DNA of 64,000 nucleotides from NCBI RefSeq assembly GCF_900141665.1, contig NZ_FQYI01000009.1, positions 1 through 64,000 on the forward strand. Direction: 5' to 3'. The stretch comes from Cruoricaptor ignavus. GTDB lineage: Bacteria > Bacteroidota > Bacteroidia > Flavobacteriales > Weeksellaceae. The position numbers and the translations under genes are program-made. The notes under the pieces are model-generated. The model was not told where the DNA came from and ran no database searches. It worked only from the letters and a program-made list of their open reading frames with translations. Positions 27,790-37,123 of this stretch are shown in pieces. The stretch's first letter is position 1, and each line of letters starts with the position of its first letter.

Positions 27790-27917
27790 AAACACAACGG
27801 CACGGCATATTTTTAGTTTAATCTGTTAAAAACACTGAGAATCAGTGAGTTACAAAAGGATTTTCTGCGAAAAATAAAACACAGCGGCACGGTGATTATT
27901 TTTTATTAAAACACTGA
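27790..27917. repeat. Two tandem copies of a bipartite intergenic repeat
   Basis: AAACACAACGGCACGG at 27790-27805 recurs with one change at 27877-27892. AAACACTGA follows each copy (27830-27838 and 27909-27917). The rest of the unit is AT-rich and less conserved. Similar ACACAGAG words occur at 13148-13203. No ORF is present between 27780 and 28047. Confidence 0.5.
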
Positions 27918-27998
27918 AATACAGAGCGTTGCGTTTTAAAAACTGTGACGCTTGGACTAGCCCAGCGTGACAACATTTACTTTTCTTTTGCCTTTTAC

Positions 27999-31672: not shown

Positions 31673-31752
31673 TTGCTTAAAATTAATGCTTTTTCCCGGC
31701 TAAAGTAGAAAAAATGTTCCTAATAATTTTTTTCTGAGTTACGGATTATATT

Positions 31753-31873
31753 GTTAGTAATGCTTTCAGATTTTTTATTTTTGTGATTATTCACAACTGG
31801 AGAACACTCCGGAACTAAGTAAAAACAGTTGTGAATTGCTTTCAGATTTTTTATTTTTGTGATTATTCACAAC
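31753..31873 (+). CRISPR. Two-repeat, one-spacer type II-C CRISPR array
   Basis: Repeat 2 (31828-31873) is 46 bp, begins GTTGTGAATTGC and ends ATTCACAAC, so its ends are inverted repeats. Repeat 1 (31753-31797) is identical over its last 37 bases but degenerate at the 5' end (GTTAGTAA) and one base shorter. The single spacer is 31798-31827 (30 nt). The 5' part of the repeat is complementary to the anti-repeat of the tracrRNA at 37046-37070, which fixes the crRNA orientation as plus, toward cas2. No protospacer was found in the window. Confidence 0.92.
31829..31859 (+). promoter_or_regulatory. Promoter embedded in the CRISPR repeat
   Basis: Within repeat 2, TTG (31829-31831), 20 bp and TATTTTTG (31852-31859) form a consensus Bacteroidota promoter firing on the plus strand. 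In repeat 1 the same -7 box is at 31776-31783, with TTG at 31751-31753 and a 22-bp spacing. The repeat 1 copy would start crRNA transcription just before the spacer. Confidence 0.65.
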
Positions 31874-31883
31874 CTCAAAAGAT

Positions 31884-31918
31884 AACCCGCTAAAAATCAG
31901 CGGGTTGCTTTTGTTTTT
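31884..31918 (+). terminator. Terminator of the CRISPR array transcript
   Basis: AACCCGCT (31884-31891) pairs with AGCGGGTT (31899-31906), followed by GCTTTTGTTTTT. It ends plus-strand transcription 14 bp before the cas2 stop codon, so crRNA synthesis does not run antisense into cas2. It may also act on the cas operon from the other side, but the T run there is weaker. Confidence 0.75.
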
Positions 31919-31931
31919 AGAATTGAAATTT

Positions 31932-33180
<1,249 letters not shown>

Positions 33181-33181
<1 letters not shown>

Positions 33182-36100
33182 TAATTTTCACCAATTTTTA
33201 TAATCTCTCCTAAATGATTAACTTTAACCTTTTTTGGATTTAGTTTTAGGAAAGAGCCAACACTTGTCAACCGATAAAATCTTTTGGATTCTTTAGCACC
33301 TTCTATTTTTTTCAGGTCAGAATTTTTAGTTTCTAAATGATGTCTGAACCAGTAGTCATTATCGGCAATACTCCAAGTTAAGTATAAATGCTCACTAATT
33401 AACTCATTGTCATTATTCCTTATAGCATATTCAAAATCTTCATCTTCTAGACCTAAAATGAACATTTCATTTTGCTGTAATGAAAATTTTAATGTGAGAT
33501 TGTTATCAGGTAATTGTTTTAAAAAATCTTCTGGATATGCACCTTCTAAAACAGTATTCCACAGCTCCGCAGAATTCTTAATAATTACAGGAAATTTATA
33601 TTTTTTCCTTTCAACGGCATGCCAAAAGCTGCATATATGCTGATGAATATTCTGCTCATTATCGTAATACAATGCGATATGATGATTGTTGCCTGTTTTT
33701 GCAAAGCCAATATTTTTACCGTTTCCATCCTGCTTCACTGGTTGCACTGCTGAAAGACCTGTCCTGCACCGTACTGTCTTTATCGGGATTCCTTTTTCCT
33801 TGTTGAACCACACTGTTTCTTTGAAAGCTTCTTTTTCATTTCCATTATGTTCACCAATCTTAGCAGAAAGAATTGCCCTTATTTTATCATCGACAATAAA
33901 CTGTAAGTCTTTTTTCTTTAAATCCTGGATTTTATATTTGATAACATATTCGTCCTTATAGCAGTCCGCTTTGTCAAGTGTTTTTTTTGTCTCAATGTCT
34001 ACATAAATAGGCGACTTTTTTACAGAAGCTAAGGCTTTTTTCCCATCGCCATTGTATTTTGCTATTCTCGCTTCAATCAAAGTCTTTATTTTTTCATCTT
34101 TTATGAGATCTACATTTTCGAAAAGAAATTTTAATGGCTTGTCTGAATCTATAGTCTTAATTTTTCCATAAACAAACTGTTCGTGTAAAGCTCCCCGCGG
34201 CGTTAAGACACCAATAGACTTATTTTTGCCCTGCGCTTTGTATTTGCTGATCGTTGCGACTTTTTTCCCGGTCTTGAAAGATACAAGAATTTGACTTGCA
34301 GCTTCTTCAACATCCCTAGTTGTAAAGGGCTTTTGAGCAATCAAATAGTTTTCAAGTAATGTCAACCTTTCATTATACTTAACTGCAGCGTCAGAAATTT
34401 CTCTTAGCATTTTATTTCGTGTATCACTAGCATTCAAAGTGTTAAGCCTTTGAATATATCCCTGTTTTGTACAAGCAACAACAAGTGCATCGATAGCGTG
34501 ATGCCTATGATCATCTCTTTTTGTCCAATTTTTTATTCTTTCTTCTTTGTGCTGCTCTTTTCCGAAATTGCTTGTCCATTCTACAATTTCAGTTTGGCCA
34601 AGTTTCCTATACTTTTCAATATTTAAATTCATCAAAACATTATCCCATCCCCAAAGTTTTCGTAATTTTGCAGTTACACCGCCTTCTGTTGTGCTCACAT
34701 TTCTGCACACATTTTTTAAAATTTCTGTTGCTTTTCTTGATATATAGGAAGATTCTCTAAGCTGTCTATCGATGAAATTTTCCCAAAGTCTTTTATCGGC
34801 TTCTGTTTGCTTGTTTTTACTTTTCCTTTCTAAGTATTCTTTGTGCGATACTTTTAACCTCAGCATTTTCCCATAAGAAATTATATTTTGGTTATACCAA
34901 GTGTCAACTCTGTCCAAATATTTCTTCAATTCATCTTCGCCTTTTGATGCAATATAATCATAAGCGGTAAGCTTGCCCTTATTATCATTGCATTCTCTGT
35001 GCACTAAAACTTTATTCATCTGAGAATCATCAAACAGCAATGCTTTAGGAACAATATGGTCTATATCAAAATTATCACCACGCATCGCATCAGAAAGACT
35101 GAAACTTTTTCCGCAATAAATACACTGATTAAATACCTTGCCTTCGGTTATTTTTTTATCCCTTACAGGAAATATGAATTTGTATTTCTGTATGTTCTTT
35201 TTAGTGCTCGGCAATCCTAATTCCTGTAACCTCTTCGCAATTTCCTGATTAAGTTTATTATTTTTCGAGATTTGAATGTCTGCATCATTTCTTTCATCTT
35301 TGCTTTGCTTCAGCTCCCTTGCCAATTCTACTCTGATCTCTGCAGGCCTTCCGTATTTTTCAATTATAGCATTTACAATGTGTATCGTCTGATTAAGAAT
35401 TTTTTCAACAACCGGCTGCCGAAGTTCGTTCTTTTTAAGAAGTTTAAGCTTGTCCTTTAAAAACCTTTCGGAATTTTCAACTCTTGTTAAACTGTTAGAA
35501 TGGTTGTAACCGGCAAGACTGCAAGCCTGTGAATAATTGTATCCTTTCAAAAGATAGGGCAGAATTTTCCGCATTGCTTTGTGCGATTTGTTTGCATATC
35601 CGGAACTAGTGAAGTCTAATTTTGAAAGTTTTTCTGCCTTTTCCTCCTCAATATAATGTCCAAATTTTTTTATCAGCGCGTTTTTGCATTCTTCAGAATC
35701 TTTGATTGAATAGATTGTATGCCACAGTCTATATAATGGCTCTTTTTCAATATTTTCATCGACTATATAAGAAGCGTGCTCTTCTAAAATTTCACCGGTT
35801 TTCCTATCTACTAAAAATGCTTGTTTTTCTTGTGGCTTTATATCTATTTCAAAATTCAAAAGCGGATGCTTTTCTCCTAAAATTTTTGCAATTGCTGAGA
35901 ATGTTTTATTTCCTTGAAGCCCTTTTAGTATTTGCTTGTTGGTATAAACTTCTTCCTTCTTTAAATTTACTATTTTTAAAAGTTCTGAAAATGTTAAAGA
36001 ATCGTGAGTATTTAGATAGTTAGCAATTTCAATTTTATTTTCCAATGTGGGAGTCCAGTCACTCCATTTATATTTTGAGCCCTCCGGATTTTTAATTTTC

Positions 36101-36981
36101 AAGGAAATATTATTTACAGTTTCCCAAATTTTACAAAGTTGATTTAATGGTGATGATTTTGGCGCAATCTTAGGTCCAAGTATCTTAGTTATTATTTTTC
36201 CGTTTTCATTTATCACTTCTTTTTTTACAAGTTCAAAATCACAAAAACTCACCAAACCCTTTTGTGATTTCAGATGCCTTTGATAAAAAATAATTTTATT
36301 TCTAATTTCATCAACTACATCGTCTGTTAGAAATTTGTGCTTCTCCTTCTGTACTTCAATTATTTTGTCAAATTCTTCTATGTAGGCTTCTCTCGGATAT
36401 ACTTTCTTTTTTACTTGGAAATATTCAGAATTTTCTTTAGCTCTCAAAAGTTCCCCGTAAAAATATTGCCCTATAGTTTGATTACTTTCTTTCAGTTGAG
36501 CGTGCCTGGACTTTACATCTGCTACATATTCAGTGTCTTTTTTATCCATATTAGCTTCGCTTCTTGCCGACTTATACCCCCTTTTTTGATTCATCATATA
36601 GAACACTCTTCCGAGTTCTTCATCAGTAAGAATTTTGTCGCTGCTTGCAGCATCACTTCTCAGCTTCCAAAGCTCGAGAGAAGGCAGTTTCATTAAATTT
36701 TCTGAAGGAAAGATGTCTAGGTTTTCTAAAATTTTTTTCAGATTTTCTTTTCTGTCTTGTTTCCTATCATATCCTTTACGCTGTGTTCGGTTAGTCGTCC
36801 TATTTTGATTTTTGCTGATGGACTGCCCTCTCTGAAATTCTGTTTTTTCATCAGTTGTTAAAGGAATAATTCGGGAGCCCATTGCGGTAATCCGTATTGG
36901 AAACTTTTCTTCACAAACTTCTATTAAAGCCCACCCAATTGAAGTTACCCCCAAATCCAGTCCAAGTATAGTTTTGCTCAT
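33181..36981 (-). CDS. cas9: Type II-C Cas9 endonuclease
   Basis: The 1266-residue RNA-guided nuclease is apparently intact. RuvC-I is GLDLGVTSIGWAL with catalytic D9. An Arg-rich bridge helix follows (NRTTNRTQRKGYDRK). RuvC-II has the Glu in IRVELAREL near residue 552. The HNH domain has a CIYC metal-binding pair and DIDHIVPKAL near 640. RuvC-III has the HHAIDA block near 829, and a C-terminal PAM-interacting region follows. It is longer than compact II-C enzymes of about 1000-1100 residues. Sampled lines give about 30-38% GC, clearly below cas1 and cas2. No anti-CRISPR gene was recognised. Confidence 0.97.
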
Positions 36982-37009: not shown

Positions 37010-37040
37010 TTGTCAATATGAAAAAAATGTTATAAATTTG
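37010..37040 (+). promoter_or_regulatory. tracrRNA promoter
   Basis: TTG (37010-37012), 20 bp and TAAATTTG (37033-37040), the same spacing as in the CRISPR repeat. It fires away from the divergent cas9 gene. Confidence 0.75.
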
Positions 37041-37045
37041 CTACA

Positions 37046-37123
37046 GAAAAATCTGATTTGCAATTCACAATAAGGATTATTCCGTTGTGAAAACATTTAA
37101 GGCGGGGCAACTCGCCTTTTTTT
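37046..37123 (+). ncRNA. tracrRNA of the type II-C system
   Basis: The anti-repeat (37046-37070) is complementary to the 5' part of the CRISPR repeat: AAAAATCTGA and GCAATTCACAA match, separated by a three-against-two base bulge. A short nexus-like hairpin follows (GGA TTAT TCC, 37074-37083), then a single-stranded linker, then the terminator hairpin GGCGGG-GCAA-CTCGCC (37101-37116) and seven T. Expected length is about 75-80 nt. It lies between cas9 and hpt, divergent from cas9. TTCACAA (37064-37070) can also pair with TTGTGAA (37085-37091) inside the molecule. Confidence 0.9.

Follow-up and report, generated by a model that had tools for sequence, protein, structure and literature searches.

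The type II-C CRISPR locus of Cruoricaptor ignavus raises the question of how an array is transcribed when its leader lies at the far end, downstream in the direction in which the crRNA is read. The explanation favoured here, to which the comparative sequence evidence lends a probability of about 0.78, is that the long II-C repeat is itself a promoter recognised by the primary sigma factor of the Bacteroidota, each copy driving the spacer that follows it. The locus was studied within a window of 64,000 nt (contig NZ_FQYI01000009.1), meaning the whole stretch of DNA that was analysed.

A minimal II-C locus and its candidate tracrRNA gene

A profile search of the genes around the locus found cas9, cas1 and cas2 to be contiguous, with neither csn2 nor cas4, which identifies the system as type II-C; a FabK-like gene and adenylate kinase are among the genes scanned beside this trio. 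The array on the far (downstream) side of cas2 is minimal, consisting of two 46 nt repeats and one 30 nt spacer.

31752 to 31797, + strand: repeat 1, at the leader-distal end; decayed over its first 9 nt and matching repeat 2 exactly over the remaining 37 nt on the 3' side
31798 to 31827, + strand: the sole spacer, 30 nt
31828 to 31873, + strand: repeat 2, intact, leader-proximal
31932 to 32270, - strand: cas2 (TIGR01573)
32267 to 33181, - strand: cas1, type II (TIGR03639)
33181 to 36981, - strand: cas9, 1266 aa (TIGR01865, 484.7 bits)
37010 to 37040, + strand: candidate tracrRNA promoter, TTG-N20-TAAATTTG, with the same spacing as repeat 2
37045 to 37123, + strand: tracrRNA candidate, with the anti-repeat at 37047-37070 and a terminator hairpin and T run extending to 37123

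The tracrRNA candidate is upstream of cas9, and its anti-repeat is complementary to the repeat, as is characteristic of type II-C; this anti-repeat sets the crRNA sense as the + strand. The duplex formed between repeat and tracrRNA has a predicted energy of -28.4 kcal/mol, with paired repeat positions extending up to approximately 26. Repeat 2 is the only place in the genome with an exact match to the first 32 nt of the repeat. No exact match to the spacer was found in viral contigs, spacers showed no first-base bias of note, and Rfam returned only sub-threshold matches, in which the repeat resembled CRISPR-DR50 and one sRNA scored at chance level. Outside the CRISPR locus, a short, partly palindromic repeat is present twice between two genes, at 27829-27851 and 27908-27930.

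Promoter-like motifs within the repeats

The first-pass annotation had claimed that repeat 2 contains TTG-N20-TATTTTTG and that repeat 1 keeps the -7 box. Both are borne out, and repeat 1 has in addition a TTG at N22 that had been overlooked. Predicted starts were placed by taking the box to span positions -12 to -5 (PMC9723704).

31751 to 31753, + strand: TTG at N22 from the box, a candidate -33 element for repeat 1
31776 to 31783, + strand: repeat 1 -7 box, TATTTTTG; transcription predicted to begin at about 31788, leaving 10 nt to the spacer
31829 to 31831, + strand: TTG at N20 from the box, a candidate -33 element for repeat 2
31852 to 31859, + strand: repeat 2 -7 box, TATTTTTG; transcription predicted to begin at about 31864, directed into the leader

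Exact matches to TTG-N17-23-TAnnTTTG number 12 in the window, counting both strands, and the three at the locus are those of repeat 1, repeat 2 and the tracrRNA gene. In shuffles of this AT-rich repeat, the chance of an exact TAnnTTTG is 0.016 at N17-23 and 0.007 at N19-21. Across the genome there are 64 matches to TTG-N20-TAnnTTTG, approximately twice the 33 found for a reversed control; the wrong spacing of N12 produces a similar result (57 against 38), and therefore the motif alone is weak evidence, to which the TTG adds little. The proposition that a single match is significant was rejected, as it is expected by chance in around 1.6% of cases and the TTG spacing is not special genome-wide; hence the case rests on comparison with relatives. 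Although the -33 TTG is present at N20 in repeat 2, it is common to the II-C repeats of other phyla, and it cannot count as independent evidence because GTTG opens these repeats in many phyla and pairs with the tracrRNA. A scan of the locus region for sigma-70 promoters found none.

Conservation of the box among Bacteroidota repeats

The comparison encompassed approximately 115 Bacteroidota Cas9 regions, together with 80 named Cas9 loci of which most belong to other phyla. One repeat was extracted from each locus in the crRNA sense and similar repeats were removed, with those of 44-50 nt being classed as long; a box was scored as TAnnTTTG with at most one mismatch, N17-23 after the TTG of the repeat. 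By this measure it is present in 25 of the 32 non-redundant long Bacteroidota repeats, compared to a mean of 5.4 and a maximum of 13 in shuffles, although these repeats are related and so their counts are not independent. Exact boxes are found in 10 of the 32 (0.5 in shuffles), and under a stricter 80% clustering the box is found in 10 of 14 repeats (2.0 in shuffles). Alignment of related repeats had been suggested as a check on the conservation of both boxes: that of the -7 box is upheld, whereas the TTG is shared with other phyla. A search for selection on internal variants found too few differences between repeats within arrays, with no contrast at the box.

The seven long repeats without a box include the GTTCTTTG subclass. 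In this group of 46 nt repeats (L062, L088, L092, L138 and L215), a conserved GTTCTTTG or TTTCTTTG takes the place of TAnnTTTG.

A different pattern is evident in other phyla, where TAnnnT forms the 3' end of 34 of the 35 II-C repeats and an exact TAnnTTTG is found in none; the TAnnnT ending occurs in 0 of the 32 long Bacteroidota repeats. Hence the latter lack the -10 box at the 3' terminus that typifies the sigma-70-type repeats of Neisseria and Campylobacter, and instead carry the -7 box of the Bacteroidota primary sigma factor (consensus as in PMC9723704). The repeats of each phylum thus tend to bear the box that suits the polymerase of that phylum.

A calibration is provided by the tracrRNA genes that accompany these repeats, since they have to be transcribed. 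An exact TAnnTTTG precedes this gene in 30 of 49 long-repeat loci, mostly 4-6 nt before the anti-repeat, and the modal TTG spacing there is N20. Pairing with the tracrRNA fails to explain the conservation of the box in the repeat, because the tracrRNA is predicted to begin only at the anti-repeat and thus offers this box almost nothing to pair with.

These comparisons also bear on whether the TAnnTTTG region might serve recognition by Cas1-Cas2, or the structure of the repeat, and merely resemble a promoter. The box lies within an inner inverted repeat in many long repeats (for example GTATCTTTGAGATAC), and the palindromic ends of the repeats are likely to be read by the integrase. However, the same box is found ahead of tracrRNA genes, the repeats of other phyla have a -10 type box of their own in its place, and the nn positions vary; TA and TT, by contrast, are nearly fixed, a pattern that is illustrative only, given that the repeats were selected on the box. 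Such a role therefore appears distinctly unlikely as the reason for the motif.

Repeat length and the position of the predicted start

The first-pass annotation had attributed the accommodation of the promoter to the 46 bp length of the repeat. This does not hold, because the distance from the TTG to the end of the box is only around 31 bp and several 36 nt repeats hold the box; a requirement for 46 nt was rejected, with 36 nt Bacteroidota repeats such as L067 and L127 containing the candidate promoter. The 36 nt repeats of this phylum are mixed, with an inner box in 7 of 16 and a TAnnnT end in 6 of 16. On the Cas9 tree, some nodes of which are weakly supported, most long repeats fall in one clade, while the box-bearing 36 nt repeats L124, L129 and L127 are found elsewhere. 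The box may have been gained more than once, since 36 nt repeats with GATCTTTG or TAATTTTG belong to another Cas9 clade.

In the long class the box is 12-17 nt from the spacer, such that, if the box spans -12 to -5, the start is predicted to be 8-13 nt before the spacer. Hence, judging from these distances, the extra 10 nt would alter the position of the predicted start rather than the fit of the promoter. Within positions 31788-31836, the predicted 5' repeat tag ATTCACAAC is complementary to the beginning of the next repeat, GTTGTGAAT, and it is possible that pairing between the two forms a hairpin around the spacer in the precursor.

A separate class of 36 nt Flavobacterium repeats ends in GATATT (L074, L080, L086, L217 and others) and has no TAnnTTTG. 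These repeats have TTTG at positions 8-11 and GATATT at 31-36, separated by N19, an arrangement that could be a promoter extending into the spacer.

Polarity of the array and its flanking sequences

In 34 long arrays the repeat at the crRNA-5' end is decayed and that at the 3' end intact, the reverse is found in none, and the array in the window follows the same pattern. This decay indicates growth at the crRNA-3' end, as is characteristic of II-C arrays, and in Riemerella anatipestifer new spacers enter on the cas2 side (PMC6008519). The leader is therefore downstream, and unable to drive crRNA transcription. In Riemerella, a promoter in the leader, beside cas2, has nevertheless been proposed to transcribe the array, on the basis of promoters that a general tool predicted there (PMC5006608). 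Its product would be the strand opposite to the crRNA sense set by the tracrRNA anti-repeat, and an exact box facing the array is found in the leader of 0 of 49 loci, making this explanation highly improbable.

The alternative of one external promoter upstream of repeat 1 on the crRNA strand, with the box in the repeat a relic or chance occurrence, draws on the 79 nt of AT-rich DNA ahead of repeat 1, in which there is a box with one mismatch, TAATTTTT, at 31724. Nonetheless, an exact box is absent upstream of the array in the window and present at only 5 of 49 long-repeat loci, with a full promoter at 2 of 49, and the conservation of the box across repeats would be left unexplained. An external promoter thus seems unlikely to account for transcription of the array.

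The decay of first repeats is chiefly at the 5' end; the box is as good as the consensus in 30 of 36, and the TTG is weakly retained (13 of 36). Even without selection, the 3' part of a decayed first repeat could be maintained through recombination with inner repeats.

The interval between the array and cas2 contains one further element.

31883 to 31917, no strand assigned: terminator-like hairpin in the leader with T-rich tails on both strands (z -4.5)

On the crRNA strand, 47 of 65 long-repeat loci have a hairpin of this terminator-like kind after the last repeat, compared to 2.35 in shuffles. The same hairpin is nearly equally common on the opposite strand (44 of 65), which suggests that it probably stops cas2 transcripts too. 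Such a G+C-rich hairpin flanked by T-rich stretches may terminate transcription in both directions or serve as a landmark for integration; a similar palindrome has been described in the Riemerella leader (PMC5006608).

A model for transcription of the array

If the long repeat is the promoter, the -33 TTG at its 5' end and the -7 TAnnTTTG in its middle would be read by the primary sigma factor, with RNA polymerase initiating approximately 5 nt past the box and about 10 nt before the spacer. The transcript would then run across the spacer into the following repeat, the 5' half of which would pair with the tracrRNA, and RNase III and trimming would presumably produce the crRNA. Because spacers are added downstream, on the cas2 side, each new copy of the repeat would come with a promoter, relieving the leader of that role. 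In the window, repeat 1 would drive the sole spacer, and repeat 2 would yield only a short leader RNA that should end at the hairpin. The earlier suggestion that each repeat starts transcription of the next spacer, such that no leader promoter is needed, is thus supported by a box that is conserved, faces the spacer and matches tracrRNA promoters, and by a leader on the wrong side; the TTG cannot be added to this list as independent evidence.

Were this correct, it would explain the expression of II-C arrays in a large gut and environmental phylum despite the leader being on the far side. It would also tie the evolution of the repeat to the specificity of the host sigma factor, which could limit the transfer of II-C systems between phyla.

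Comparison with known systems

The II-C repeats of Neisseria meningitidis are 36 nt long and have a sigma-70 -10 box at their end; work by Zhang in 2013 reportedly identified these repeats as promoters. Both the principle and the polarity of the array are the same in the long Bacteroidota arrays. In Campylobacter jejuni, repeats terminate in GGTAAAAT, an extended -10, and starts map to position 5 of the spacer (Dugar 2013, PMC3656092). This system likewise has one promoter per repeat in a II-C locus, a tracrRNA, a minimal cas set and transcription within the array. It differs in that its start lies in the spacer and sets the 5' end of the crRNA, whereas the long Bacteroidota box is 12-17 nt before the spacer and the start is predicted to be inside the repeat, implying a different crRNA 5' end.

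The first-pass annotation had noted repeat promoters in Neisseria and Campylobacter with another consensus, but proposals within the phylum already existed. In F. columnare and F. psychrophilum, promoters encoded in II-C repeats were proposed from TTG alone, at 33 or 35 bp from the spacer (PMC8092290, PMC10309648). These proposals share the phylum, the idea and transcription towards the variable end, with weak RNA-seq support, but identify no -7 box in the repeats; furthermore, the F. columnare repeats are 36 bp and form a class separate from the long repeats. The paper on F. psychrophilum transcript starts (PMC9723704) contains no text on CRISPR. In Riemerella, no promoters were reported in the 47 bp II-C repeats, using a promoter tool not built for the Bacteroidota consensus (PMC5006608). 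Extracts of a study of II-C extra repeats (PMC12080349) state that the first repeat decays in its first ~15 nt and that the repeat must remain a promoter; these extracts cover II-C systems generally rather than the Bacteroidota specifically, and describe no TAnnTTTG. In the literature searched, neither the full -33/-7 form in long repeats nor its conservation across the phylum was found. The present reading, if true, would supersede the TTG-only proposal with a full, testable promoter and correct the claim that Riemerella-type repeats are promoterless.

It is about an even chance that the repeat promoter has been matched anew to the sigma factor of the host phylum, with an inner TAnnTTTG, probably acquired through repeated gains, where a terminal -10 is lacking, and that the start inside the long form gives a crRNA precursor beginning with a repeat tag and the whole 30 nt spacer, unlike that of Campylobacter. 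Hence the best reading of these sequences is that the long Bacteroidota repeat promoter would represent a phylum-matched version of a known II-C trait.
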